NCBI RefSeq assembly: GCF_963667045.1 | Contig: NZ_OY762934.1 | Coordinates: 2,535,501-2,599,500 of the forward strand | Reading direction: 5' to 3' | DNA from: an uncultured Cohaesibacter sp. | GTDB taxonomy: Bacteria > Pseudomonadota > Alphaproteobacteria > Rhizobiales > Cohaesibacteraceae | Length of the DNA stretch: 64,000 bases | In this document: piece after piece, positions 17,385 to 47,600 of the stretch | How the letters are laid out: the number at the start of each line of letters is the position of its first letter | How positions within the stretch are numbered: the first letter of the stretch is position 1 | Made by a program: the position numbers and the translations under genes | The notes under the pieces: model-generated | What the model saw: only the letters and a program-made list of their open reading frames with translations | What the model was told of the DNA's origin: nothing | Database searches by the model: none

Positions 17385-18215
17385 ATGATCCGCATCTTTT
17401 CAGCTATGCTGATTGCCATCGCGATATCCATTACGCCCTTGACCTGGCATTACGGAAAACTATATTTCGAGCCGATGCAGCCTGCGCAGGTTGCCCCCCG
17501 TGATGATATTGCACTCAGGGCAGAAATAGATGCCTTGCGGAAACATGTGAGCGAGCTACAAACCCGGATTGATGGTCTGGATGCGCGCCTGTCACTTGGG
17601 CTTCGCAGCGACGCAAAAGACGATGTAGCTGCAAGCGAAGGCATTGCCCCTGCGTCAGACAGCCTCAAGGACTCCTTTGCTCAGGTCGTGCTGATTGCTG
17701 ATCGCCGCAACGCCAACAACGGCCTGACAGCCGCCTCGCCGTCTTTTCTGTCGAACCTACTCGGATTGCCACGCGAAAATCTGACCGACGATTGCCAACA
17801 GGCAACCAATCCCAAGCTAGCTGCTCTGCTCAAAACCGAAGATGTCGGACCGATTCAAGCCAGGATGCTGGAACCCGCCCTCATTTCTCTTCGACAGGTT
17901 TTTGCCAATGTGCAGGTTTTCGAACCTGAGCTTTACGCACGGATCAAAAGCGCCGGCTCACTTTGCGTAAGACGTATTCGGGGTTCGACCAGCTCCGCTT
18001 CTGCCCATGCCTACGGTTTGGCGCTGGACATCAATATTGATGGTGTGCTCGATAGTCTGGCCGATGGCAAGACGCAGCTCGGTCTTATCCTGCTGGCTGA
18101 CTTCTTCAAGAAGGAAGGCTGGATCTGGGGCGCAGGGTTTGGACGCGAGGACTCCATGCATTTCGAGGTAAGCCGCGAAAAGCTGCAACAGTGGCGAAGG
18201 TTGGGTGAAATCTAA
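17385..18215 (+). CDS. M15-family zinc peptidase (peptidoglycan peptidase-like)
   Basis: A 276-residue exported or membrane-anchored protein with one N-terminal hydrophobic segment (residues 4-20), a short coiled coil near residues 40-70 and a C-terminal M15-type peptidase domain. The zinc site is visible as SAHAYGLALDI (SxHxxGxAxD) and SMHFEV, with the conserved WIWGAGFGRED just before it. Such enzymes cut stem peptides of peptidoglycan. It converges with the last gene of the T6SS cluster. It could be housekeeping, or it could help local wall remodelling for T6SS assembly. Its hydrophobic N-terminus makes a classical injected effector less likely. Confidence 0.82.
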   Translation: MIRIFSAMLIAIAISITPLTWHYGKLYFEPMQPAQVAPRDDIALRAEIDALRKHVSELQTRIDGLDARLSLGLRSDAKDDVAASEGIAPASDSLKDSFAQVVLIADRRNANNGLTAASPSFLSNLLGLPRENLTDDCQQATNPKLAALLKTEDVGPIQARMLEPALISLRQVFANVQVFEPELYARIKSAGSLCVRRIRGSTSSASAHAYGLALDINIDGVLDSLADGKTQLGLILLADFFKKEGWIWGAGFGREDSMHFEVSREKLQQWRRLGEI

Positions 18216-29249: not shown

Positions 29250-29540
29250 TTAGCCTCCCACCAACACGGTAGGGCATCCCATGACAATGACACCACCATG
29301 CGCGCAGGTATCTCCAAGACGCGCCTGGGGTTTCTTGCCTGTCAGTACCTTGGTTGATCCCTTGGTCACCATATCAGGCGGGCCGACACAAACTGCCATG
29401 GAGGTCGCGGTGGCGGCTGGCATTTTGCCAATGAGCACGGTTGGACAGGGTACGATGATGGGGCCACCGATATGAGGAATAATACCGGTTACCATGGGGC
29501 AGACATGATTGTCGCCAATGCGGGCGGCTGGGAGTGTCAC
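29250..29540 (-). CDS. PAAR spike-tip protein
   Basis: A 96-residue PAAR protein consisting only of the sharpened cone (PAARIGDNHVCPMV, GCPTVLVGG at the end) with no attached toxin domain. It caps the VgrG spike and can carry effectors non-covalently. The start overlaps the stop of the upstream gene (29537) by ATGA, and the FHA gene starts five bases after it, so these are tightly coupled. Confidence 0.92.
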   Translation of the reverse strand: MTLPAARIGDNHVCPMVTGIIPHIGGPIIVPCPTVLIGKMPAATATSMAVCVGPPDMVTKGSTKVLTGKKPQARLGDTCAHGGVIVMGCPTVLVGG

Positions 29541-30160
29541 GATTCTTTCTCCTTGTCGGATGGGATTTGCGCAGGCATGGGAACATTGCCATTTCCACCA
29601 CGCGCAATGCTCAGCGCGCGTTCCAGAAGGACTGGCCCGTAGGTGTCGACCTGATCTTCGTCATGAAAAAGAGCATCCAGCACCATACCGAAAACAGCAA
29701 AGCCGACGGCTCCCGGAGGGGATTCATAGTCGTTCAAATGGCCTGGTCCCAACGTGCCATCCGCAAAACTCGCTGCCATTGCGCAAAAAGCAGTATTGTC
29801 TTCGTTGCCAGCTCTATCTAGCGCTTCTCTGGCTTGGGTCCTGGCTTCTACACCGGGTTGGCGAACCCAAGCTTCGGCGGCTTGAACAGTGGCGGGAAGA
29901 GGCTTCTCCGGCCCGAGCATGTCCCGCGCTGCGAGGCATGCCCACCATGTAGCCTCTCTGGCAGGTAACGTGTGGGCAAGCAATTGCAACATGTCGATCA
30001 AGGCACCCTTTGCTTCCAACTCACTGAGAACGGCCGGAACAGACGCACTGGCGCTGGCATCGAGAGAAGATTGAAGGACAACATTTCCCGCCGCCATAGC
30101 CTTGGCTGCGGGAATATCCGGTATTTTTTTCAAATCTGAGAAACGTGTGCTGATTGTCAT
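29537..30160 (-). CDS. DUF6931-like T6SS-associated protein
   Basis: A 207-residue cytoplasmic, alanine-rich helical protein that I match to the DUF6931 family found between vgrG and PAAR genes. The match rests on AREATWWACLAARDM, AWVRQPGVEARTQAREAL and SPPGAVGFAVFGMVLDALF. Its role is unknown. The fixed position between VgrG and PAAR suggests a spike-loading chaperone or adaptor. Coupling to PAAR is by ATGA overlap, and vgrG ends ten bases upstream. Confidence 0.7.
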   Translation of the reverse strand: MTISTRFSDLKKIPDIPAAKAMAAGNVVLQSSLDASASASVPAVLSELEAKGALIDMLQLLAHTLPAREATWWACLAARDMLGPEKPLPATVQAAEAWVRQPGVEARTQAREALDRAGNEDNTAFCAMAASFADGTLGPGHLNDYESPPGAVGFAVFGMVLDALFHDEDQVDTYGPVLLERALSIARGGNGNVPMPAQIPSDKEKES

Positions 30161-32327: not shown

Positions 32328-32642
32328 TCATGAGCTGTGTGAATATTCAACAAGGACGAGTTGGTTCTCGGTCTTCAGACGATCAATAATACCGGTGTGA
32401 ATTGCCCACAGGTCTGCGGTGTCCATCCCCCCGCCGGGCAATGAAGACAGTTCGAACATGCTGGCGAACCGGACGCAATAAACAGGTGTTGGGTAGGATT
32501 GTTCAGCGGACAACAGTGCGGCAAGATGCTCGTCCCCCTCGACAAGCCAATAGCTTTCACCGACCTGCGCCAGCAGAATGGCGTTGGCTTCGCCCTTGTC
32601 TTCCTTGGTCTTGTCTGACATACGGCTGTTGGCATCAAGCAT
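32328..32642 (-). CDS. Small unknown protein between the TssBC fusion and vgrG
   Basis: A 104-residue acidic protein of unknown family. Recognisable stretches are AILLAQVGESYWLVEGDEHL, TPVYCVRFASMF and TADLWAIHTGIIDRL. It has no signal peptide or membrane span. Its ATG at 32642 overlaps the stop of the fusion gene by one base (TGATG), so its synthesis is probably coupled to that gene. It may be a partner or chaperone of the fusion or of VgrG. Confidence 0.65.
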   Translation of the reverse strand: MLDANSRMSDKTKEDKGEANAILLAQVGESYWLVEGDEHLAALLSAEQSYPTPVYCVRFASMFELSSLPGGGMDTADLWAIHTGIIDRLKTENQLVLVEYSHSS

Positions 32643-35563
32643 CACAGATTCTCCAGAAGTGCGGCCAGATCGGCGTCGAGATCCTCTTCGTCGCTCTCCG
32701 AAGGCGTTGTGACGGACGTATCGTCATCGAAACTCGCCAGCAGACTATCCAGATCCATATCGTCGTCGGAATCCAGGCCGGAAAGCGCATCGTCGTCACT
32801 GTCGTCTGTAGACAGATCGAGGTCGAAGTTCGAGCCAATATCTGACAGGTCTGTCACCAACGCGTCGTTGTCGATCCCAGCCTCATTGTCAGATTGTACG
32901 GGCACTGCCGCGAAGCTGATTGTTGTATCGTGATTGGCTCCAACGGGCGCCTTGATTGTAGCCCACGGGCCTGCGAGCATCGTCCCGCTCAAAGCCTGAA
33001 AAGAGCCCTGACGCACTTCATTGCGCCCCTTGATCGATAGCAGGGGAATAAAGCCACGCGCCACGACGTCCGCCATTGTGCGCGTATTGAGAAGGCGTTC
33101 CGTGCAGGGCAGAGCAATTTGGTCGCCATATTGATCATTCATGGTATGTACTGGCATGTCGTCCAGAGACATGATCTTGCCAAGCTCCATCGACTTGCCC
33201 ATGCTGCTTACCGTCTTTGCCATGAGAATGGCCGATAGAATGACCGGATTGGCCCAGAGCATTCCTTTCAGGCCACTACGCAGATTGAATTCTTCGAAAT
33301 CAAATGGCTCCACCGGTTCTGTTTTGCGGCCATAAGGTAACCGCAACAGGAATCGAGGTGACGCAAGGCCAACATAAGATGCTTCAGGCAACTGCCGCAT
33401 CGCATCCCATGTTCTGGCCGTCACCGGGTGGCGGTCCTGCTTGGGAATTTCCAGAAATTTGGGAGAAATCGCTGCAATGAACGGCGCATTCATCCATGCG
33501 GATATCTTCGCCATACGGGCAAGAAGATCGGCATGAGGCGGTGTTTCCTCCAAACTGTACAAGCCGAAAACAGCCGACAGTGCGCCCTGTTCTTCATCAA
33601 GACGTGGTTCTTCCGCCAACATCCTGAATAAACCGCTTTCAGACAACTCATCCTGAGCCGATAGGTCTGCAGCCCATTCCTCGGCAGACACATCATAGAG
33701 AATGATCTCGAGCGAAGCGCCGGTCTCAATCCGTCTGGCAAGCAAATCAAGAGAACGCCAAGTCGACTCGACGGCCTGAAAATCCGGATGGTGCAGAATA
33801 GCCCGCATGACGCCTGACAAGGCGCTGTCGATTGCTTCAAGCCAGCCTTGTTGGTCCGGATCCGGAGCTGCCGTCACATAAGGCTTGACCACGCGACTGA
33901 TAAGATCTTGCGCAGGCGTTGCCACCGCCGCAATGCCTTCCCTGTTACCGATCAGGCTCTGGAAATCACTGAGCTTGCAGTTGGCAGGTACGGCGCTTCC
34001 CTTGGCTCTGTTGCGCGGCAAATGCTCGATGTCGATCGGTTCGGCAGCCAGATCGCTCAGATAGGAAGCAGGCGCAATTGCTCCCGTTGCAACACGCTGG
34101 CGAAGGGAAGACAGTTCCTCGAAGATGGAAACATTCTCATAGAGTTTATCAGGATGAAGGTCATCAAGACCGTTCAGCTTCACCTCTATGCCAGCACCAT
34201 CCTGGCCCAGAGGTAAAACAAGCGTCGTCGCAAATCTGGCAATAATGGTGTCGAGATTGTCGACATCAAGCTTGATCGGTTTTCGATTGGCAAGATCGTC
34301 GCCTGTTGCCAAATCGCCACGATTGGCGCGTCCTGTAAAGTCCCCAAGAATGGCGATACGAAACTTGGAATGGCGATCTTGATTTTCCTGAGGTTGTTCG
34401 AGGGAAAGAACTCCGAATGGTTCGGCCAGAACTGGCTCCTCATTTTCTTTTTCTTCTTCCTCATCCTCACCAATCAAAAGCCCTACCAATTCCTCAGACA
34501 GATCAGTGTCGCCGTCGGATTGATCATCGAGAAGTGCATCAAGATCAAGCTCTTCTTCTTCCGGCTCTGTCACATCTGGTGAGAGTGGGCCATCATCAAA
34601 AGCAGCGTCGTCATCTAGGTCATCCGGCCTGTCTGCCAAAAGGGAAGCCAGATCGAGCGCATCCTCATCTTGTTGCAAATCCGAGACGCTTTCGTCTTTG
34701 TCGAAAACATCATCATTGGAATAGGCGCAATGGAGGCTCTCATCTTCGTCACTGCTTGCCAGAAAACTGCTGAAAGTGGCGTTCAGATCGTTCGTATCAT
34801 CTTCGGTCTTTATCTCGAGTGAACGCAATGCAGACAATGCAGCCTGAGTGGAATCGCTCTCCTCTTCCATTGATGGCACGGCGGAGGTCGACAAGAGGCT
34901 TTCAAACGCGGTCAGCGTTTCGTCAGGCATTTCCTGTTCATCAGAGATGGTCTGTTCGCGCAGACTGTCAAGAGCCGCAAATGTTGTGTCGTCTTCCTCT
35001 GCTGTCCTGATTGTCGAAGACATCTGCTTCAAGCTTTCGAAGACTTTCTCTTGATCGCTAGACGAAGCAGGAGAGTCTCCCGAAGACGCGAGGATAGCGC
35101 TCAGGACCTGAGGGTCAGCGATCAGTTTGGCAATAAGCTCTTCCGCTCCGGTTTTACCGTCCATATAGGTGATCAGATGGGAAAGTTGCGTCCGGGCTTC
35201 GAGCAATTTTCTCAATGGCTCAACCTTTTTTGCGATGGCCGCAGGCGTAAAATCCTTCATGCTCTCGAATGAGAGATCAATGCTCAGGTTGCCATCGCCC
35301 GTCAGGGTGTTTGGCACCGTGAACGTCGCGCGCGGGCGAAGAGCTTTCATGCGCTCATCGAAATTGTCGACGTCGATTTCCAGAAATTTGCGATCTGCCA
35401 CACTGGGCAATGGTGCCTCTGATTTGCCAGACAGATCTGACATGACGCCCATCACGAAAGGGAGCTGAACTTTCTTCTCGGCTCCATAGAGCTCGACATC
35501 ATATTCGATCTGTACGCGTGGCGCCCTGTTGCGAGCGACAAATTTCTGTCCACTTTTCGACAT
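32642..35563 (-). CDS. TssB-TssC-like sheath fusion with acidic linkers
   Basis: A 973-residue protein not matching the usual T6SS gene list. Residues 1-158 are a TssB domain almost the same as the separate TssB encoded at 45929-46447. Residues 159-398 are a strongly acidic, low-complexity linker with repeated hydrophobic LxxLL-type motifs (ASLLAD, DALLDD, VGLLIG). Residues 399-865 are TssC-like: FRIAILGDFTGRA opening, then HHPDFQAVESTWRSLDLLAR, MAKISAWMNAPFIAA, SYVGLASPRFLLRLPYGR, TERLLNTRTMADVVARGFIP. The normal TssC C-terminal strands are missing and replaced by an acidic tail (residues 890-973, DLDSLLASFDDD, DADLAALLENL). It cannot be the main sheath subunit, because intact tssB and tssC are present. 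A role in sheath initiation, end-capping, length control or recycling is inferred. Confidence 0.85.
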   Translation of the reverse strand: MSKSGQKFVARNRAPRVQIEYDVELYGAEKKVQLPFVMGVMSDLSGKSEAPLPSVADRKFLEIDVDNFDERMKALRPRATFTVPNTLTGDGNLSIDLSFESMKDFTPAAIAKKVEPLRKLLEARTQLSHLITYMDGKTGAEELIAKLIADPQVLSAILASSGDSPASSSDQEKVFESLKQMSSTIRTAEEDDTTFAALDSLREQTISDEQEMPDETLTAFESLLSTSAVPSMEEESDSTQAALSALRSLEIKTEDDTNDLNATFSSFLASSDEDESLHCAYSNDDVFDKDESVSDLQQDEDALDLASLLADRPDDLDDDAAFDDGPLSPDVTEPEEEELDLDALLDDQSDGDTDLSEELVGLLIGEDEEEEKENEEPVLAEPFGVLSLEQPQENQDRHSKFRIAILGDFTGRANRGDLATGDDLANRKPIKLDVDNLDTIIARFATTLVLPLGQDGAGIEVKLNGLDDLHPDKLYENVSIFEELSSLRQRVATGAIAPASYLSDLAAEPIDIEHLPRNRAKGSAVPANCKLSDFQSLIGNREGIAAVATPAQDLISRVVKPYVTAAPDPDQQGWLEAIDSALSGVMRAILHHPDFQAVESTWRSLDLLARRIETGASLEIILYDVSAEEWAADLSAQDELSESGLFRMLAEEPRLDEEQGALSAVFGLYSLEETPPHADLLARMAKISAWMNAPFIAAISPKFLEIPKQDRHPVTARTWDAMRQLPEASYVGLASPRFLLRLPYGRKTEPVEPFDFEEFNLRSGLKGMLWANPVILSAILMAKTVSSMGKSMELGKIMSLDDMPVHTMNDQYGDQIALPCTERLLNTRTMADVVARGFIPLLSIKGRNEVRQGSFQALSGTMLAGPWATIKAPVGANHDTTISFAAVPVQSDNEAGIDNDALVTDLSDIGSNFDLDLSTDDSDDDALSGLDSDDDMDLDSLLASFDDDTSVTTPSESDEEDLDADLAALLENL

Positions 35564-35713: not shown

Positions 35714-36787
35714 TTAACCGGCAAGTTCTTCGACCGCTGAGGTGATCGACTTCAGAATGCTCTTCACATTCTTCGCCTCCGATTGGATGGTCTTGCGATC
35801 CAGAGCCTTGATCCTTTCCAGCAGCGTTCTGTCATCAATCTTGGCACCGAGATCCGCGAGGGCTTCCTCGATATCATCCAGAAAGCTTTCCTGCTTGTCG
35901 AGGCGCTCGGCAAGAACGCGCACCTGCCCCTTGAGCCTCATGCATTCGGCTCCGACCTTGACGCCTTCCTTGAAGGATGGGGCGGCTTTCATCCTGACCT
36001 CGATCTTGCCGGCGGCTTTGGACAGAGCGTCCGTTGAATGCCGGGTCTTGGTCACGTTGTTGCGGTAATCCTTGCGGGCCGTTTCGGCCTTGCTGGCAAA
36101 GCCGGCCAGCGTCTTGTCCGGCTCCTTGTTCCCGGATGTCAGTTCAATCTTGTGTTTGGCAAATTCGGCAAGGGCCTTGTCGAGCGTTCGCCTCAGGGTG
36201 CCCTCGCTGCGCATTTGCTTCTCGAAATCTTGATAGAGCGCCCTCAGTGTTTTGGCGATCGCGATATAGGCCGTGACATCCGCTCCAGAGGATGCGACCA
36301 GTCGACTGACGCTGGTTGTGAGTTTGACGACGGATTGTCCCCATTTCACAACGGTCCTGATCCGCGCTTCGGTGAGGTTGGCATCATTGCGTGCCTCTTT
36401 CTTCAGGCGGTCTTGCGCCGCCTTTTGGGCATCCTCTTCTGTCGAATTCATCTGCGCAAGAATGGCCTTGTTCGTCATCGCCGCCGTTGCTTCGACTTTC
36501 CTGGCGGTCTCTTGTGTGACGGGACGCTCGCTCATCAGGCCATCGATTTCTTTGGCGGCGTCGAAGGCAAGCTTCTTGATCTTCGTCTCTCTGTCTTCCA
36601 GCACCTTTCTGGCGTCAGCCTCAAGGCGCTTGAACAGGGATTCGGGCGCTGGTGTCTTGCCTTTCGTCGTTACCTCGAATTCGACGTCGACCCGAAAGGC
36701 GGGCACTTCGATATACTCGCTCTTTGGCTTGTTGCGCACCAGATCGACCACATAGAACTTGTGTTTGGCGGTGGTTGCCATCTGCAA
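35714..36787 (-). CDS. Unknown coiled-coil protein of the T6SS cluster
   Basis: A 357-residue, highly charged, almost wholly alpha-helical protein of unknown family. After a short N-terminal beta-like part (HKFYVVDLVRNKPKSEYIEV) it is dominated by heptad-like helices rich in Ala, Lys, Glu and Arg (residues ~60-130 and 180-355), with no signal peptide or membrane span. It lies between clpV and the TssBC fusion in the same direction. This suggests a cytoplasmic helper of sheath disassembly or sheath organisation. It could equally be a non-canonical structural protein or a cargo. Confidence 0.7.
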   Translation of the reverse strand: MQMATTAKHKFYVVDLVRNKPKSEYIEVPAFRVDVEFEVTTKGKTPAPESLFKRLEADARKVLEDRETKIKKLAFDAAKEIDGLMSERPVTQETARKVEATAAMTNKAILAQMNSTEEDAQKAAQDRLKKEARNDANLTEARIRTVVKWGQSVVKLTTSVSRLVASSGADVTAYIAIAKTLRALYQDFEKQMRSEGTLRRTLDKALAEFAKHKIELTSGNKEPDKTLAGFASKAETARKDYRNNVTKTRHSTDALSKAAGKIEVRMKAAPSFKEGVKVGAECMRLKGQVRVLAERLDKQESFLDDIEEALADLGAKIDDRTLLERIKALDRKTIQSEAKNVKSILKSITSAVEELAG

Positions 36788-36813: not shown

Positions 36814-39516
36814 TTAGTCGAAGGCGTAGGAAAAGTCGCCATCGGTGACGTCTACTCCAACCTGTTGGATGCTGTCCCCTTGCATCATTCTCGTCAGGAA
36901 CTCGGTCGAGATTGCGGGGAGCATTGTATTGGTGATGATTGCATCGATCATGCGACCGCCGCTTTCAAGTTCCTGACAGCGCGAGACGATCGTATCAATC
37001 ACCGCATCGGAATAGGTGAATGGCACTCCGTAGGTATCCCGAACCCTCTTGCGGATGCGCTCAAGTTGAAGGTCCGTGATCTTGCTAATCATGTCAGGGC
37101 TAAGTGGATAATACGGAATGGAGACCATGCGGCCCAGAAGAGCAGGTGGGAAAACCTTGAGCAACGGGGCTCGCAGGGCCTTGGCCATGCCTTCCGGGTC
37201 TGGCATCAACTCTGGATCTGCGCATAGATCCATGATCACTTCTGAGCCGACATTCGACGTCAGCAGGATGAGTGTGTTTCGAAAATCGATCATCCTGCCT
37301 TCGCCGTCTTCCATGAAGCCCTTGTCAAAGACCTGAAAGAAGATTTCATGTACGTCCGGATGGGCTTTCTCTACCTCGTCAAGCAAAACAACGGAATAGG
37401 GCTTGCGCCGGACAGCTTCCGTAAGCACCCCACCTTCCCCATAGCCGACATAGCCCGGAGGAGCACCCTTGAGGCTGGAGACAGTGTGTGCTTCCTGAAA
37501 TTCTGACATATTAATCGTGATGACATTCTGCTCCCCGCCATAAAGTACTTCGGCCAGAGCAAGCGCGGTTTCCGTTTTCCCAACGCCCGATGTGCCTGCC
37601 AGCATAAAAACGCCAACCGGCTTCGAGGGGTTGTCGAGTCTGGCTCTGGAAGCCTTTACCCTTGCCGCAATCATCTCCATTGCATGATCCTGTCCGATCA
37701 CCCGCTTTGACAAATGATCAGCAAGATTAAGCACGGTGCGGATTTCATCCTTGACCATGCGCCCGACCGGAATACCGGTCCAATCTGCCACAACAGAGCC
37801 GACAGCCTGCGCATCCACGATCGGAAGAATGAGGGGCGTCTCTCCCTGCAAGTCTGACAACTCTGCCTGTTTGCGTAGCAACGCTGCACGGGTTTCTTCT
37901 CGTCGCTCCGCATGCATCTCCGTGTGGGACGGTGTCGATTGCGCATCTCCTGTCGCTTCGACGGGGGCGGCGGTTTCCCTAAGCTTTGCCCGCAAAGCAA
38001 GGATCTCTTCAACAAGCGCTTTCTCTGCTTCCCAGCGATCTGTAAGAGACTGAAGGCGAAGAGTTTCAGCCTCCAAGTCTCCGGTTATACGAAAGCGCCT
38101 TTCGTCAACGAGCAAGCCGGCCGCTTCGTCTCGGCCAATGATGTCCAGCTCAGTCCGTAGAGCCTCGATATGCCGCTGGCTATCATCTATTGAGGCGGGT
38201 ACGGCATGCAGGCTGATTGCTACACGCGCTGACGCCGTGTCGAGTACGCTGACAGCCTTGTCGGGCAGCTGTCTGGCTGGAATATAGCGTGCGGACAGCT
38301 TGACTGCCGTCTCCAACGCTTCATCTAGGATCTGCACTTTATGATGCTTCTCCAGCATGGTTGCTATGGAGCGCATCATGAGAATGGCGCGCGCCTCATC
38401 GGGCTCCTCGACTTGCACCACCTGAAAGCGCCGGGTCAAGGCAGGATCCTTTTCGATATGCTTCTTGTATTCCGCCCAGGTGGTCGCTCCAATGGTCCGC
38501 AAGGTGCCACGAGCCAGCGCGGGTTTCAGAAGATTGGCAGCATCCCCTGTTCCTGCCGCGCCTCCCGCCCCAACCAGCGTGTGCGTTTCATCAACGAACA
38601 GAACAATCGGTGCCGGACTGGCCTGTACTTCTTCAAGCACGCTTTTGAGGCGATTTTCAAACTCGCCTTTCATGGAAGCTCCGGCCTGCAGAAGACCGAC
38701 ATCCAGAGAGAGAACCCGAGCCTCGCGCAGTCCTTCTGGCACGTCACCACGCACAATGCGCAAGGCAAATCCTTCGACAACCGCCGTTTTGCCAACGCCG
38801 GCTTCTCCGGTCAGGATTGGGTTGTTCTGCCTGCGTCGCATGAGCACGTCGATGATCTGCCGGATTTCTTCATCTCGCCCTACGATCGGATCGATTTCGC
38901 CTTGTCGGGCTTTCTCGGTCAAATCGCTGCAAAATTGGGAGAGAGCATCGCCGCCGCCTAATTGGGCTGGAATTGTATTGGATGAAAGGCTCTGCTCTAT
39001 ATCGTGCCCACCGCTCCTATCGGTTGCCGACATTTTGTCTTCAGGTGATCCGGCCAGAATGTCCTGATGATGTTTGGAGAAATGATCGACATCGACCTTG
39101 CTGAATTGCGGAGAGATCGCCTCCATGAGACGTCTGAGACTGGACGTCTTCAGAACCCCGAAAAGCAGATAACCTGTGCGCACCTGAGAGGCACCAAACA
39201 GCAGGGATGCATAGACCCATGCCCGTTCAACGGCTTCCTCCAAATGCGGCGAAAGGTCGGAAATTGCCGTAGCCCCGCGCGGCAGGCTATCCAGATTTCG
39301 GACGACATCGCCTGCAAGGCGGGCGGCATCAAGCTCATAATGATTTATCAGATGATGCAAATCACTATCTTGCAATTGCAGTATCTGGTGAATCCAGTGG
39401 ACCAGCTCAACATAGGGATTGCCGCGCATCTTGCAAAAAACCGTAGCGCTTTCGATAGACTGAAACCCCAATTGGTTCAATTTGCCAAACAGGGCCATGC
39501 GGCTGATTTCCGACAT
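36814..39516 (-). CDS. tssH: T6SS sheath-recycling AAA+ ATPase TssH (ClpV)
   Basis: A 900-residue Clp/Hsp100 ATPase. It has an N-terminal ClpN domain (VHWIHQILQLQDSDLHHLI), NBD1 with GEAGVGKTAVVEGFA and LFVDETHTLVGAGG, a middle domain, and NBD2 with LAGTSGVGKTETALALAE and VVLLDEVEKAHPDVHE. It unfolds contracted TssB/TssC. ATG 39516 with AGGAAAG upstream is the family start. It begins 23 bases after tssG. Confidence 0.95.
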   Translation of the reverse strand: MSEISRMALFGKLNQLGFQSIESATVFCKMRGNPYVELVHWIHQILQLQDSDLHHLINHYELDAARLAGDVVRNLDSLPRGATAISDLSPHLEEAVERAWVYASLLFGASQVRTGYLLFGVLKTSSLRRLMEAISPQFSKVDVDHFSKHHQDILAGSPEDKMSATDRSGGHDIEQSLSSNTIPAQLGGGDALSQFCSDLTEKARQGEIDPIVGRDEEIRQIIDVLMRRRQNNPILTGEAGVGKTAVVEGFALRIVRGDVPEGLREARVLSLDVGLLQAGASMKGEFENRLKSVLEEVQASPAPIVLFVDETHTLVGAGGAAGTGDAANLLKPALARGTLRTIGATTWAEYKKHIEKDPALTRRFQVVQVEEPDEARAILMMRSIATMLEKHHKVQILDEALETAVKLSARYIPARQLPDKAVSVLDTASARVAISLHAVPASIDDSQRHIEALRTELDIIGRDEAAGLLVDERRFRITGDLEAETLRLQSLTDRWEAEKALVEEILALRAKLRETAAPVEATGDAQSTPSHTEMHAERREETRAALLRKQAELSDLQGETPLILPIVDAQAVGSVVADWTGIPVGRMVKDEIRTVLNLADHLSKRVIGQDHAMEMIAARVKASRARLDNPSKPVGVFMLAGTSGVGKTETALALAEVLYGGEQNVITINMSEFQEAHTVSSLKGAPPGYVGYGEGGVLTEAVRRKPYSVVLLDEVEKAHPDVHEIFFQVFDKGFMEDGEGRMIDFRNTLILLTSNVGSEVIMDLCADPELMPDPEGMAKALRAPLLKVFPPALLGRMVSIPYYPLSPDMISKITDLQLERIRKRVRDTYGVPFTYSDAVIDTIVSRCQELESGGRMIDAIITNTMLPAISTEFLTRMMQGDSIQQVGVDVTDGDFSYAFD

Positions 39517-39539
39517 TGTTTCTTTCCTATGAAAAGGGT

Positions 39540-40559
39540 TCAAAATTCGTGATGCAATGGAGCTGAAAGAAAGAGATCGTCGGCATCTTTCTTTTCTCGC
39601 TGGCCGATCCAGCTGGTTTGACCCAGCGCGATGTTTGAGCCGAGAACCGCTTTGGGAACCTCTTCCTCTTTCAGGATCAGGTTCACGTCCCATTCCAACG
39701 TCTCACCGGCATAAGAGCGGATGATTGCGTTGAGCCGTTTGATGCTTCGCCCACCTGGAAGCAGACGTTTATAGTCTTCAAGATTTAAGGGGCCTATGCG
39801 AATGCGAAACCTCGCTTCGCGCGACCAGACTTTTTCGCCCAGACTTGCGCTTTGTCCGAGACAGGCCCCGCCTAGGCGTCCGCGATCGGTTGGCTCAAGA
39901 TGCAGCCAGCTACCTACAAAGCTTTCAATGGATATCCGGGCGCTGAAAAAGCGCCTCAGAATAGCAGCAAGGCCTGCTTCGTTGCGTGGGCCTGCCGACA
40001 ACAGACCGGCAAAATGACGTCGAGCGAGATCGGGCATTGCGTCGCGGCAAGCAAAGGCTTCCCCGGCCACGCCCGCAATCGCATCAAGCTTTTCCCCAAA
40101 GGGATCATCATCAATACGGTCGAACGACGGGGCGGGTTCTCCCGTTGTCCAAGCGCGATAAAATAGCGAAAGCATGCGATGATGGAACATGTCCGCAAAA
40201 GCAGTAAAGGTCGGATCATGCTGATTGCGCAGTCGATCTCTGGCATATTCAGTCAGATGAAGCGGTAGGGCGCCGTTCGGGCCAAAGAGCCCAAACGCAT
40301 GCTGAGACAGGCGAGCGGGTCCCCTGCCCTTATTTATGGCGAAGCGTGCAATCGTCGACGTTGGAAAGGCCAGCTCCGGCTCTTGCCCAAGACGGACAGG
40401 ATCTTGCGCGGGGCGCCGGGAGCGACCGAGACGTGGATTGCTGTCGTAAGCAGCCTCAATCAGTCTGAGAGCCTGAAACAGGTGGTGTGTTTGCGGTGAT
40501 CCCTCGAGCGCATCAAGACGGCTCAGATCAGGACCCTTTTCCCGCTCTTGGCTGGCCAT
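39540..40559 (-). CDS. tssG: T6SS baseplate protein TssG
   Basis: A 339-residue TssG with the family blocks HHLFQALRLIEAAY, RLGRSRRPAQDPVRLGQ, FGLFGPNGALPLHLTEYA and ADMFHHRMLSLFYRAW. It forms the baseplate wedge with TssE, TssF and TssK. The 5' end overlaps tssF by 37 bases, a common arrangement. Confidence 0.95.
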   Translation of the reverse strand: MASQEREKGPDLSRLDALEGSPQTHHLFQALRLIEAAYDSNPRLGRSRRPAQDPVRLGQEPELAFPTSTIARFAINKGRGPARLSQHAFGLFGPNGALPLHLTEYARDRLRNQHDPTFTAFADMFHHRMLSLFYRAWTTGEPAPSFDRIDDDPFGEKLDAIAGVAGEAFACRDAMPDLARRHFAGLLSAGPRNEAGLAAILRRFFSARISIESFVGSWLHLEPTDRGRLGGACLGQSASLGEKVWSREARFRIRIGPLNLEDYKRLLPGGRSIKRLNAIIRSYAGETLEWDVNLILKEEEVPKAVLGSNIALGQTSWIGQREKKDADDLFLSAPLHHEF

Positions 40560-42401: not shown

Positions 42402-42896
42402 TTACACCTGTTTGATTGTCAAATCGCCACTGACGACATCGAGAGCTGTTCGCAGATAAAGTTCGACAGGTACCGGCTTTGCCCAAAGTTCACCGCGAAT
42501 ATCAAAGGAAATGACCGCTTCATTCGCGTCCTTGTTCTTGGAAGGCGTAACCTCAATGGATTCCCGCAGAATACGCGGTTCAAAAATCTCAATTGCCTTG
42601 CGGATCGTCTGTTGTATCTGGGCAATGTGATGGCGCGTGTCACCGCGTCCTGAAAGGTTTGAAATGCCGAAATTCAAAACGGAACTTGCTACATTTGGAT
42701 AGAGGTCGAGATTGTGTGTCGCCTCGATATTTGAGCAATTCAGCAGCCAGAAGAGATCCCGATGGATAATTTTCCTCAGTCTGTGAATGTCGATGGACTG
42801 CTCCGACACACTATCGCTTTTGTTTCCGCTTGCGTCATCGGTCAGACGATCGAGCAATGAGGGCTGCAAACGTTCGGCTAGCAGAAGGTCAGCCAT
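42402..42896 (-). CDS. tssE: T6SS baseplate protein TssE (gp25-like)
   Basis: A 164-residue gp25-like protein with RLQPSLLDRLTD at the N-terminus, NFGISNLSG and the conserved IRKAIEIFEPRILRESIEV core. The ATG at 42896 is preferred over an upstream in-frame start; it overlaps the tagJ stop by eight bases. It initiates sheath polymerisation on the baseplate. Confidence 0.92.
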   Translation of the reverse strand: MADLLLAERLQPSLLDRLTDDASGNKSDSVSEQSIDIHRLRKIIHRDLFWLLNCSNIEATHNLDLYPNVASSVLNFGISNLSGRGDTRHHIAQIQQTIRKAIEIFEPRILRESIEVTPSKNKDANEAVISFDIRGELWAKPVPVELYLRTALDVVSGDLTIKQV

Positions 42897-43731
42897 CAAT
42901 ACCTCCGAAGCGATCCGATTGTGTTGCTTGCTCCACGGACTGGTTGAGTAGAAGTTCGCGGACATCCATCAAGGCAAAATCTGAATGGTCGGTCGCAAAA
43001 AGTCGTTGCCCAAGGCCGCACACAGCAAGCTCTCCGGCATCGGTTTTCTGCCACAGTGTTGAGGCCGAGAGCATGAGGCGATCATCAGCCGCATTCGTCG
43101 TCCCTACATATCTGGTCGGGATCAAAGCGACGGCGTCACCACCATTGGCCCAGGTTACGGTCGCAGGCATCCAGACCCGATCGCGCAAGTCGCTCGGCAC
43201 GCCCATCTGCAACTGGTTTATGGCCGAAAATGGGACCCAGAAATAGCGACCATTGACGATAAGTTCCATGAGAGGACCAAGTCGCGGATCGGCGTCAGCG
43301 ATCCATTCAAAAGCCTGGCCATTGATAGTTCCGGGGATGGCCGGAGCCATTTCAAAGGCTGCTTCACGAAGATCTTTGGCGGCAATGACATTGCCTGAGG
43401 CCTCAAGTTTGATCGCTTCTATCATCGAGGCGATCCAACCCTCAGGCTCACCAAACACCATTGGCTGTTTTTCTCCACGGAAAACCTGTTCGCGATGAAG
43501 TTCGCAAATGATCGCGGTCCGATACATCTGCGCCATGGCATTGGCTTGAGGGCTCAGGGTGGCACAGGTTTTCAATTGTTGAACGGCTCGTTGCCAAGCG
43601 CCCATGACACAAAGTAGCTGGAACAGGAAAATGCGTAAGCTGACATCTTGAGGTGCTTTACGGATGCTTTCCTGCAAAGCGCTCAATGCACCTTTCAGAT
43701 CGCCATCCTTGAGCCGTTGCTCTGCTAACAT
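42889..43731 (-). CDS. tagJ: T6SS accessory protein TagJ (ImpE family)
   Basis: A 280-residue ImpE/TagJ protein. A TPR-like N-terminal half (GALSALQESIRKAPQDVSLR) is followed by the diagnostic FEWIADADPRLGPLMELIV and RYFWVPFSAI. TagJ binds the N-terminal helix of TssB and can assist ClpV-mediated disassembly. That is notable here, where two TssB domains exist. Located between hcp and tssE. Confidence 0.92.
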   Translation of the reverse strand: MLAEQRLKDGDLKGALSALQESIRKAPQDVSLRIFLFQLLCVMGAWQRAVQQLKTCATLSPQANAMAQMYRTAIICELHREQVFRGEKQPMVFGEPEGWIASMIEAIKLEASGNVIAAKDLREAAFEMAPAIPGTINGQAFEWIADADPRLGPLMELIVNGRYFWVPFSAINQLQMGVPSDLRDRVWMPATVTWANGGDAVALIPTRYVGTTNAADDRLMLSASTLWQKTDAGELAVCGLGQRLFATDHSDFALMDVRELLLNQSVEQATQSDRFGGIDG

Positions 43732-44422: not shown

Positions 44423-45925
44423 TTACTGTCCCCTTTGAGACGGCAGCTTTGAAACCAGCCGCAGAGAGACCGAAAGGCCTTCCAGCTGATAATGCGGTCT
44501 CAGGAAGAACTTGGAGCTGTAGTAGCCGGGGTTGCCCTCGACTTCTTCGACCACAACTTCGGCTGCTGCCAGAGGATGGCGAGCCTTCTCGTCTTCGTGG
44601 GAAGTCTCGGCATTGAAGTCGACATATTTGTTGATCCAATCCTGTAGCCACTCCTGCATATCTTCCCGCTCGCGGAAAGATCCAACCTTGTCGCGAACGA
44701 TGCATTTGAGATAATGCGCGAAGCGGCAGGTAGCGAAGAGATAGGGCAGTCGCGCCGCCAGATTGGCATTGGCCGTGGCATCCGGATCGTCATATTCCGC
44801 AGGCTTCTGAAGACTCTGAGCCCCGATGAAGGCTGCCAGATCGGTGTTTTTGCGATGAATGAGTGGCATCATGCCATTCTTGGCAAGTTCCGCTTCCCGT
44901 CGATCCGAGATGGCAATCTCGGTTGGACATTTCATGTCCACGCCACCATCGTCCGTCGGGAAGGTGTGGGTTGGCAGCTCGTCAACCGTGCCGCCGGATT
45001 CCACGCCGCGAATGCGGGTGCACCAACCATATTCCTTGAAGGATCTGGTCACGTTGCGTGCCATGCCATAGGCGGCATTGACCCAGCAATATTTGTCTGA
45101 ACTTGCTCCTTCGGTATCTTCCTCAAAGGAGAATTCATCAACCGGATCGGTCTTCTCGCCATAGGGATGACGCCCAAGAAAACGCGGCATTGCAAGGCCC
45201 AGATAGCGACTGTCTTCGCTTTCTCTCAGAGACCGCCAGGCCGCATATTCCGGGGTCTGGAAAATCTTTGTCAAGTCGCGAGGGTTCGCCAGTTCCGACC
45301 AGGAATCCATCTGGAAAAGGGATGGTTCTGCGGCGGTCAAAAACGGAGCATGGGCGGCGGCGGCAACCTTGGACATTTCGCCAAGAAGCTCAACGTCCGG
45401 AGGGCTGTGATCGAAGTAGTAATCACCAACAAGACAACCGTAAGGTTCTCCACCAAACTGACCATATTCCTCTTCATAGAGTTTTTTGAAGATCGGCGAC
45501 TGGTCCCAGGCCGTACCCTTGAATTTGCGCAGGGTCTTGGAAAGGTCTTTCTTCGAGATATTGAGAACACGGATTTTCAGCATCTCGTCGGTTTCAGTAT
45601 TGTTGACGAGAAAATGCAGGCCCCGCCAGGCGCTCTCCAGCTTCTGGAAATCCTTGTGGTGGAGAATGAGATTGACCTGCTCGGTGAGCTTCTTGTCGAT
45701 CTCGGCAATGATGCCTTCAATGGACCGCAGGGCATCGTCAGATACCAGGGCTTCGTTCTGCAGGACCTGCTCGGCAAGGGTGCGGACAGCTTCTTCAACA
45801 GCCGTTCTGGCCTGATCGGACTTGGGGCGGAATTCCTTCTGCAACAAGGAGGCAAATTCGGAGGAGCCGAACGTGCTCTGCGTTTCAACAGCAGCCTCAG
45901 TAGTTTGGTTCATCGGATTGTTCAT
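44423..45925 (-). CDS. tssC: T6SS sheath large subunit TssC
   Basis: A 500-residue canonical TssC with HHKDFQKLESAWRGLHFLVN, SPPDVELLGEMSKVAAAAHA, YLGLAMPRFLGRHPYGEKTD, WVNAAYGMARNVTRSFKEYG and the full C-terminal block GYYSSKFFLRPHYQLEGLSV. It interdigitates with TssB to form the contractile sheath. It starts three bases after tssB. Confidence 0.97.
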   Translation of the reverse strand: MNNPMNQTTEAAVETQSTFGSSEFASLLQKEFRPKSDQARTAVEEAVRTLAEQVLQNEALVSDDALRSIEGIIAEIDKKLTEQVNLILHHKDFQKLESAWRGLHFLVNNTETDEMLKIRVLNISKKDLSKTLRKFKGTAWDQSPIFKKLYEEEYGQFGGEPYGCLVGDYYFDHSPPDVELLGEMSKVAAAAHAPFLTAAEPSLFQMDSWSELANPRDLTKIFQTPEYAAWRSLRESEDSRYLGLAMPRFLGRHPYGEKTDPVDEFSFEEDTEGASSDKYCWVNAAYGMARNVTRSFKEYGWCTRIRGVESGGTVDELPTHTFPTDDGGVDMKCPTEIAISDRREAELAKNGMMPLIHRKNTDLAAFIGAQSLQKPAEYDDPDATANANLAARLPYLFATCRFAHYLKCIVRDKVGSFREREDMQEWLQDWINKYVDFNAETSHEDEKARHPLAAAEVVVEEVEGNPGYYSSKFFLRPHYQLEGLSVSLRLVSKLPSQRGQ

Positions 45926-45928
45926 GAT

Positions 45929-46447
45929 CTACTCCTCGCTCTGTGCGCTGTCGCCGCTGGTTGCCGGGGCAGACGCCAGCGCCCGCAAAAGGCTAGGATC
46001 CTGAATAATCTGCGCCATCAGGTTTTCTGCTCCGGTCTTGCCGTCCATGTAGGTGGTCAGGTTCGAGAGCTGGGTTCGGGCATCAAGCAGTTTTTTTAAC
46101 GGCTCGACCTTCTTTGCGATTGCAGCAGGCGAAAAATCGTCCAGGCTTTCAAACGTAATGTCGACCGCGAGATTGCCTTCGCCGGTTAGCGTATTGGGAA
46201 CTGTGAAGGCAGCCCTTGGCTTCATCGATTTCATGCGCTCGTCAAAATTGTCGACGTCGATCTCAAGAAATTTCCGATCCGCCACCGCTGGCAAAGGCTC
46301 TTCGGATTTGCCCGAAAGATCGGACATCACACCCATAACGAAAGGCAACTGCACCGATTTTTCAGCGCCGTAAAGCTCCACGTCATACTCGATCTGAACA
46401 CGTGGGGCGCGATTGCGCGCGATGAATTTTTGACTGCTACCGGCCAT
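45929..46447 (-). CDS. tssB: T6SS sheath small subunit TssB
   Basis: A 172-residue TssB (NRAPRVQIEYDVELYGAEKS, VMGVMSDLSGKSE, FLEIDVDNFDERM, LTTYMDGKTGAENL). Its sequence is about 80 percent the same by eye as residues 1-158 of the fusion encoded at 32642-35563, so the two are recent paralogues. Confidence 0.97.
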   Translation of the reverse strand: MAGSSQKFIARNRAPRVQIEYDVELYGAEKSVQLPFVMGVMSDLSGKSEEPLPAVADRKFLEIDVDNFDERMKSMKPRAAFTVPNTLTGEGNLAVDITFESLDDFSPAAIAKKVEPLKKLLDARTQLSNLTTYMDGKTGAENLMAQIIQDPSLLRALASAPATSGDSAQSEE

Positions 46448-46517: not shown

Positions 46518-47546
46518 TTAGTCGTCGATTTCTTCGATGCCGCCGATCAGGGCAACATTCTCAACCCCTTGTGGCGCCATATCTCGCATGATGGTGAAGA
46601 AGTCAGCAGAGATGAGACGGCGCGCGCGTGTCAGCAGAAGCGGCACAGGACTGGAGGGTTCATGGCGCGCGTAATAGTCGACGATCCTGTCGATCGCCCG
46701 CTTCACATCTTCTGGTGAATGGATCGCTCCCGATGAGGCTGACGAGGCCGGTACCGAGGCTCCGTCCATATCGGCTGAATCTTCGATTTCCAGGTCTGCT
46801 TCGGACAGGAAAGTTTCGGCATGGGCGCTGATGCGCCTTTTTATCTCTCTGAGAATTTCTTGCAGAGGGTCGAGGTCTGGGCCGAGACTGCCGATCTGTT
46901 CATCAAACACCGAACTGATCGCCTTCACATGTTCAAGACAAGCGTTGAGCGCGGTAACAATGGCTTCGATATGAGATGGGTCGGTATCCCGAAAGGCTGC
47001 GGACACAATCTGCGGCGTCGGGACACTATCCATGCCCGCGGGAGCGGATATTTCCCCTTCAGCTATCTGCACGTCACGCAAGCTGAAGCGACCGAATGCC
47101 CGACTTTCCGTAAGTGCGGCCAACCGCAGAGAGCCGAGAATGCCATCGCGGTCGGTCAACCCGATAGCCGCATTGACTCGCATTGTGGGGTCATTGTCAT
47201 CCTCGGCGTCAAGTTGGGGATGAACACTTTCCCAATAGCCCTCAAGAGAGCGCCGGATGTAGGCGAGAACCGGTTCAAAAGCGAGGATGCCGCCTGTTCG
47301 CAGCGCAGCATTGGCAAGCATTATCGCGATACGCAGGTCTTTTGTCCTGCCAAGCAGTGAAACGGCCGCAGCTTCGACCTCGGCGAAATCCGGGTCTTCG
47401 GCGGGGATGACTGCATCCCCGATAACCCGTTCCTCTCCTGGCCGGTTAAGTCGTGTCAGGGCTGTGTAGTCTGCATCATATTCGAGATCCATTCCACTCG
47501 GCGCATCATCTCCGAAGCTGCGTAGTAGATCATCCAGATCGAGCAT
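46518..47546 (-). CDS. tssA: T6SS cap/baseplate-associated protein TssA
   Basis: A 342-residue TssA with an ImpA N-terminal domain (FGDDAPSGMDLEYDADYTAL, RTKDLRIAIMLANAALRTGG, WESVHPQLDAEDDNDPTMRV) and a C-terminal region ending near residue 340. ATG 47546 with AAGGAA upstream is preferred over the open frame start at 47588. TssA guides assembly and caps the growing sheath. Confidence 0.92.
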   Translation of the reverse strand: MLDLDDLLRSFGDDAPSGMDLEYDADYTALTRLNRPGEERVIGDAVIPAEDPDFAEVEAAAVSLLGRTKDLRIAIMLANAALRTGGILAFEPVLAYIRRSLEGYWESVHPQLDAEDDNDPTMRVNAAIGLTDRDGILGSLRLAALTESRAFGRFSLRDVQIAEGEISAPAGMDSVPTPQIVSAAFRDTDPSHIEAIVTALNACLEHVKAISSVFDEQIGSLGPDLDPLQEILREIKRRISAHAETFLSEADLEIEDSADMDGASVPASSASSGAIHSPEDVKRAIDRIVDYYARHEPSSPVPLLLTRARRLISADFFTIMRDMAPQGVENVALIGGIEEIDD

Positions 47547-47600
47547 TATAGGTTCCTTTTGATCGGTGGTTCCATCTTTTGCGGACACAGGTTTTCCCGC

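Follow-up and report, generated by a model that had tools for sequence, protein, structure and literature searches.

The type VI secretion system (T6SS) cluster of an uncultured Cohaesibacter sp. (assembly GCF_963667045.1, contig NZ_OY762934.1) lies on the minus strand of the 64,000-nucleotide stretch analyzed here (positions 2,535,501 to 2,599,500, hereafter the window), in a genome assembled as one 5.24-Mb contig. Besides separate genes for the sheath proteins TssB and TssC, it carries tssCL, which encodes a single chain composed of a complete TssB domain, an acidic linker, a second, degenerate TssB domain (TssB'), a TssC-like domain (TssC') and an acidic tail. This protein is TssCL, a real and conserved accessory sheath-like component of the T6SS and a further member of a kind published from squid-associated roseobacters (Suria et al. 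2022, PMC9515649). We show by sequence comparison and fold prediction that its TssB'-TssC' core is a paralogue of the sheath pair that has a predicted protomer-like fold but lacks the regions in which handshake strands would be expected, and that a complete extra TssB borne on a long acidic linker is found in one alphaproteobacterial clade.

A first-pass annotation of the window had described a fusion of a full TssB domain with a divergent TssC-like domain (residues 399-865) devoid of its terminal strands, with acidic spacers, coexisting with ordinary TssB and TssC. The 973-residue protein is indeed encoded by one ATG-initiated open reading frame (ORF) in one frame, and both separate sheath genes are present. 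Residues 10-159 matched Pfam T6SS_VipA/TssB (E = 1.3e-65 in a scan of the whole protein), and residues 1-164 share 78% identity with the TssB of the same cluster. The TssC-like span had to be divided: residues 575-850 matched the VipB/TssC N-terminal domain (Pfam, E = 2.1e-43), whereas a Pfam scan of the isolated middle fragment revealed at about residues 400-491 a second PF05591 domain (E = 9.4e-9), the TssB' that had been missed. The absence of the terminal part was borne out, as PF18945, the C-terminal domain of TssC, had no match in TssCL at E ≤ 1, unlike the separate TssC of the window, which matched it strongly. TssCL scored 148.2 bits against the NCBIfam TssC model TIGR03355, below its cut-off of 271.5, and 209.9 bits against the TssB model TIGR03358, above its cut-off of 97.25; judging from its best stretch (6-160, two stretches being counted), the latter pass applies to the N-terminal domain and not to the whole of TssCL. 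Both spacers are acidic, with 32% aspartate plus glutamate (D+E) and 4% lysine plus arginine (K+R) in the linker, and 31% D+E and 0% K+R in the tail.

The same architecture was reported in roseobacter TssCL, with two VipA (PF05591) domains sharing 86.2% and 26.3% identity with TssB and one VipB (PF05943) domain at 30.9% (PMC9515649). Likewise, the window protein contains two PF05591 domains followed by one PF05943 domain, its first VipA is close to the TssB of the cluster while the second is divergent and reached only E = 9.4e-9 against the Pfam profile, and, as in the roseobacters, separate tssB and tssC genes are retained. The first-pass annotation knew of no described function for such a fusion; the architecture had been published, and the portion of that report available to us contains no functional test of it. 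We found no description of TssCL outside PMC9515649 in the literature searched, which left out most subscription journals.

Modeled alone, the TssB'-TssC' core gave a confident fold resembling a TssB-TssC unit (predicted local distance difference test [pLDDT] 89, predicted TM score [pTM] 0.90), and TssB' and TssC' appear to be paired already within one chain in this model. The predicted fold spans both halves of single-chain contractile sheath proteins. The regions that the core lacks, namely the N-terminal region of TssB' and the PF18945 domain of TssC, are those expected from sequence to carry the handshake strands. In the full-length model (pTM 0.57), the N-terminal TssB was poorly predicted, with mean pLDDT values of 27-40 for successive tens of residues 1-60, as were the acidic linker and tail.

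Four of the 18 genomes of the genus carry the fusion. Since the other three carriers in the genus, and 19 of the 79 named loci described below, hold it as an open frame, an assembly artefact, the doubt raised along with the initial description, was ruled out. Furthermore, the ratio of nonsynonymous to synonymous rates (omega) between these four genomes was 0.04-0.08 for the N-terminal TssB, TssB' and TssC', indicating purifying selection on the globular domains; the linker (0.16-0.52) and the tail (0.27-0.32) had higher values. All of these are rough because the synonymous distance exceeded 1 in three of four pairs.

In a class-wide sample, 73 of 386 genomes were matched at E ≤ 1e-5, and one further genome beyond the genus (G232) was found to encode a 509-aa TssB'-TssC' protein without N-terminal TssB. 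In a phylum sample of 397 genomes, 103 of which matched at E ≤ 1e-30, the matched range covered the whole core in the window genome (G000) and in G813, G725 and G579; the remaining matches fitted ordinary TssC, some with the end of tssB. A contig scan, from which the best 80 of 143 relatives were kept, gave 79 distinct named loci on which all counts out of 79 rest. These core-bearing loci are labelled with several phyla, although the labels of metagenome-assembled genomes may include binning errors. The N-terminal TssB was found in 19 of the 79, all Alphaproteobacteria by title; L117 had only a partial TssB match, and L105, L108, L111, L112 and L115, cut by a contig end, as well as L158, without an intact core, were not classed. 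Core-only proteins have the same core in frames of about 480-740 aa, with neither N-terminal TssB nor long linker; their genes often adjoin clpV and vgrG, and we found no name for them in the literature. The 64 relatives that were aligned, whether core-only or full TssCL, were 30-87% identical to the window core. With the window proteins used as queries, at least one core T6SS gene was detected in the available flank of 60 of the 79 loci.

In a tree of 62 TssC-type domains, 19 core rows formed one side of a branch with 100/100 support (with a long-branch warning from the program), and the 43 TssC rows, tandem second TssCs included, sat apart. Because the core rows form their own clade apart from TssC, the core seems to be an ancient paralogue of the TssB-TssC pair, and its origin by recent fusion of the tssB and tssC genes of the cluster was rejected. 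In a 65-row tree of the core, all 16 rows with an N-terminal TssB fell inside one 25-row clade (100/99), the label requiring five changes. Four changes separated 21 fused from 33 separate TssBs in a TssB tree, where the approximately unbiased test kept a single origin (p = 0.055). From these trees, the N-terminal TssB looks like a later addition, or one often lost. We found no signal of gene conversion with the cluster's own TssB in 19 pairs, own-pair identity (74-84%) being about that with the best foreign TssB. The separate TssB was complete in 20 of the 21 fusion-bearing genomes searched, and only partial pieces were found in G836.

The linkers of 21 proteins ranged from 98 to 800 residues with 22-38% D+E. 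Best-lag identity exceeded all 200 shuffles in nine of them, the window linker not being among these; several of the longest hold a repeat array with best lags near 20 or 40, most clearly in L109, L107 and L116 (lags of 21, 39 and 40, respectively; 560-800 residues). The number of linker motifs grows with linker length (r = 0.83), and an LL-type motif is enriched over shuffles in linkers and tails (19 of the 21 proteins; L005 and L007 left out). In one branch, tails carry the consensus xDLDxLLAGFxDD, mostly with a LAALL-type motif at the end, and proteins of the other branch have no acidic tail and end at or near the core with LAG[PR]W or a sequence like it.

The tail motif resembles the N-terminus of TssA. 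We built a position-specific scoring matrix (PSSM) from 46 tails (47 were available, one without the motif) and scored 29 TssAs and 920 other proteins (949 entries in all, drawn from loci L092-L170 and the window). All of the top 14 scores belonged to TssA (13 distinct, as the window TssA was scored twice), followed by a TssM. Among TssAs of alphaproteobacterial core clusters, 17 of 26 scored above and nine below the best TssA from genomes without such a cluster (14 TssAs; 18 loci were fetched and four went unscored, and G232, placed in this set, has an orphan core). TssAs of Burkholderiales and Acidobacteria core clusters, and those of second T6SSs, scored low. These counts are not independent because the TssAs are related. 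A search of its own genome with the tail profile gave three matches at E ≤ 10: TssCL, then the N-terminus of TssA at E = 0.05 and a frame of 87 aa at E = 1.3. In 25 further genomes with TssCL or with core and tail, the profile matched TssA at E ≤ 1 in seven. TssA was matched in none of seven genomes without the core (six have a TssA), another frame being matched in one. A 652-653-aa frame outside the T6SS cluster outscored TssA in three genomes of the genus (G003, G009 and G013), and five further frames outside the cluster were matched once each. The resemblance is a lead only. The Nt1 domain of Pseudomonas aeruginosa TssA was reported to bind the cognate sheath (PMC11106082), and in a Burkholderia TssA residues 8-31 make up the first ImpA_N motif (PMC6232143); a docking site common to the TssCL tail and the TssA N-terminus is possible.

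Fusion of TssB and TssC also occurs in another form. All 15 genomes of the class sample, besides G000, with a TssC match inside an open frame of 634 aa or more (G111, G235, G230, G460, G395, G476, G115, G257, G423, G174, G382, G393, G149, G353 and G321; loci L029, L037, L038, L042, L050, L052 and L256-L272) encode TssB and TssC together in that frame, which is 634-732 aa long. These Alphaproteobacteria have genomes of 0.6-1.9 Mb and belong to 13 genera and nine families. No separate TssB was found elsewhere in these 15 genomes, each of which has a single TssC-type match, and the fused TssC reaches query residue 495-499 where the locus includes the frame end. Six of them, placed in a quick tree, grouped with TssC and not with the core. 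By sequence they look like one-chain T6SS sheaths; they share with TssCL the joining of TssB and TssC in one chain, with one TssB and one TssC each. Nothing clear on such fusions was found in the literature searched; an article about a Paracaedibacter-like symbiont mentions both tssB and tssC and, in the part of its text available, uses no words beginning with "fusion" (PMC8163844). In the window, only a TAG stop and one codon (45926-45931) part tssB from tssC in the same frame, and a single stop loss would fuse both. Together with tblastn alignments that run collinearly through adjoining tssB and tssC genes in some plasmids, this arrangement suggests how such fusions can arise.

The usual gene order in alphaproteobacterial loci is clpV, tssCL, (105-aa ORF), vgrG, DUF6931, PAAR, FHA and tssJKLM. 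The features of the window are listed below. The true start of clpV probably lies further in, because its ORF overlaps tssG. The window TssB and TssC closely match those of the P. aeruginosa H1 T6SS. No promoter or terminator signal above shuffles was found near tssCL. A DUF6931 protein is encoded between vgrG and PAAR (29537-30160) and recurs in tssCL-type clusters; relatives of the 357-aa ORF were matched in L093, L103 and L106 among L092-L170. A Peptidase M15-like (D-Ala-D-Ala carboxypeptidase) gene near the cluster (17385-18215) possibly encodes an effector, or is unrelated.

Features of tssCL and its T6SS cluster; positions are those of the window.
Feature	Position	Strand	Remark
tssCL	32642..35563	-	973 aa, single ATG ORF; TssB - acidic linker - TssB' - TssC' - acidic tail
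N-terminal complete TssB domain, residues 1-159	35087..35563	-	
Acidic linker, residues 160-395	34379..35086	-	low confidence in model
Degenerate TssB' domain, residues 400-491	34091..34366	-	alignments to solved TssBs begin near their residue 30-50
TssC' domain, residues 575-850	33014..33841	-	homologous to VipB/TssC N-terminal domain; no PF18945 match after
Acidic C-terminal tail, residues 874-973	32645..32944	-	
Tail motif around DMDLDSLLASFDDD	32711..32767	-	consensus xDLDxLLAGFxDD; resembles TssA N-terminus
Conserved extreme C-terminal motif DLDADLAALLENL	32645..32683	-	
105-aa ORF	32328..32645	-	overlaps tssCL stop codon; recurs in several alphaproteobacterial tssCL clusters
357-aa ORF	35714..36787		flanked by clpV and tssCL; nothing above the Pfam cut-off, no NCBIfam match
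ClpV	36814..39693	-	named by reading the sequence, no family-library scan
TagJ/ImpE	42889..43731	-	
Separate canonical TssC	44423..45925	-	with C-terminal domain PF18945
Separate canonical TssB	45929..46447	-	TAG stop in frame, one codon before tssC start
TssA (ImpA_N)	46518..47588	-	356 aa
TssA N-terminal segment LDLDDLLRSFGDDA	47496..47540	-	second-best tail-profile match in whole own genome

Since the core appears to lack the strands that hold a sheath together, its role may be to regulate the sheath and not to form part of its wall. We consider it plausible, if somewhat short of an even chance, that TssCL is a regulator of the sheath end, in which a tethered, non-polymerizing pseudo-protomer sets sheath start, end or capping. 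The N-terminal TssB would pair with an ordinary TssC, enter the sheath as one protomer and donate its own handshake strand, and the linker would then display the TssB'-TssC' pseudo-protomer at the sheath end, either the base or the distal cap. There, the pseudo-protomer would touch sheath surfaces yet be unable to extend the lattice, and would determine how the sheath is initiated or terminated or how TssA docks. Core-only relatives would work through such a pseudo-protomer too, but free of any tether. Even more tentatively, the tail motif may engage the same machinery as the TssA N-terminus. The first-pass annotation, which had supposed that the fusion could nucleate, cap or limit the sheath, was partly confirmed in its observation and is partly supported in its interpretation. 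In the literature, as far as the sources consulted go, roles in sheath start, stop and capping are given to TssA-like proteins, and the question is not settled.

Several points weigh against a regulator of the sheath end. All proposed contacts are inferred. The full-length model leaves the N-terminal TssB unplaced and does not indicate its partner, and the loss of handshake strands was deduced from alignment end points, not from a complex. The N-terminal TssB is patchy in its clade and tethering would therefore be dispensable. In 19 of the 79 loci, several of them on short contigs, no core T6SS gene was detected, and none was recognized by eye in the ORFs of 19 kb around the 509-aa core gene of G232 (L026/L061). 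The TssA-like motif is weak in many genomes, with TssA matched at E ≤ 1 in eight of 26. Finally, the complete TssB-TssC fusions look like sole sheath genes, and therefore fusion alone does not imply a regulator.

A role in disassembly, in which TssCL would work with ClpV and TagJ, for instance as a recruiter or decoy presenting the TagJ-binding TssB N-terminus, and tune the removal of contracted sheaths, seems rather doubtful to us. The end of clpV lies less than 2.5 kb upstream in 33 of the 69 loci having more than 1.5 kb of room, tagJ is present in the window cluster, and the N-terminal TssB keeps a segment matching HsiB1 from residue 5 on, residues 8-30 of HsiB1 having been reported to bind TagJ/HsiE1, which binds ClpV1 (PMC4239648). 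However, gene order alone is weak evidence, and core-only relatives have no N-terminal TssB, many of them still lying beside clpV and several having no tagJ match in the stretch examined. We regard as unlikely that TssCL is a soluble chaperone or sequestering protein whose core buffers free TssB, TssC or their surfaces in the cytoplasm and stops premature polymerization. The core does keep a protomer fold but not the handshake-strand regions, and the strongly acidic, poorly predicted linker and tail could serve solubility; against this, TssB' and TssC' seem paired within the chain and would therefore offer less free surface to a client TssB or TssC, and the tail and C-terminal motifs conserved in one branch go beyond the needs of a solubility tag.

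It is very improbable that TssCL replaces TssB-TssC at many positions of the sheath wall as an alternative structural subunit: it holds both partner types, with its N-terminal TssB complete, and a complete one-chain TssB-TssC is apparently the sole sheath gene in 15 small genomes, but TssC' has no PF18945 match and falls well below the TssC cut-off, and separate TssB and TssC are kept. That TssCL is a decaying, functionless relic of a tssB-tssC duplication, as the shortened and divergent TssB' and TssC' might suggest, is hardly credible, this reading being already largely refuted by selection on all three globular domains and by conservation, with frames open in the 19 fusion loci and many core loci and a single clade. 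A much broader version of sheath-end regulation is quite unlikely as a whole: TssB'-TssC' would be an unrecognized class of T6SS component, a handshake-less protomer mimic that caps or starts the sheath in several phyla, and in Alphaproteobacteria it would have become a multivalent tethered regulator, with a real TssB as plug-in, peptides like the TssA N-terminus, and a linker of about 100 to 800 residues as gauge or tether for capping. If regulation of the sheath end holds true, a conserved non-polymerizing sheath mimic would provide a new handle on how sheaths start, stop and are capped.

TssCL resembles the canonical TssB and TssC in that its N-terminal domain is a full TssB and TssC' shares the TssC N-terminal fold, whereas TssC' has no PF18945 match and TssB' is without its N-terminal region. 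Single-chain sheath proteins of contractile injection systems, pyocins and phages share 5-14% identity with the core, and core alignments stop before their C-terminus, suggesting from aligned ranges only that the core lacks their C-terminal region. In Agrobacterium, TssC40 has been reported to be essential for Hcp secretion and not redundant with TssC41, an example of a second TssC homologue with an indispensable role of its own (PMC3702570). TssCL likewise adds a TssC homologue to a T6SS cluster; in our tree, which did not include the Agrobacterium protein, tandem second TssCs fall on the TssC side and the core does not group with them. In public plasmid records (H1-H23; Leisingera, many of them about 109 kb long, as well as Ruegeria and Phaeobacter, among others), genes with the core are labelled "type VI secretion system contractile sheath large subunit", like an ordinary large sheath subunit.

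Compared with roseobacter TssCL, the window protein is shorter (973 aa vs 1,684 aa in Leisingera ANG-M7) and comes from Cohaesibacter, while the clusters of both have the same kinds of accessory genes (PAAR, FHA and impE) (PMC9515649). The main text of that report has no words beginning with linker, repeat, acidic or disorder. As far as that account goes, TssCL was found only in Alphaproteobacteria and a more recent event was suggested, whereas in our data the core extends much more widely and restriction to that class seems to concern the N-terminal TssB alone. The published idea of a recent alphaproteobacterial fusion is therefore revised, and the core seems to represent an ancient relative of the sheath that is present in several phyla.

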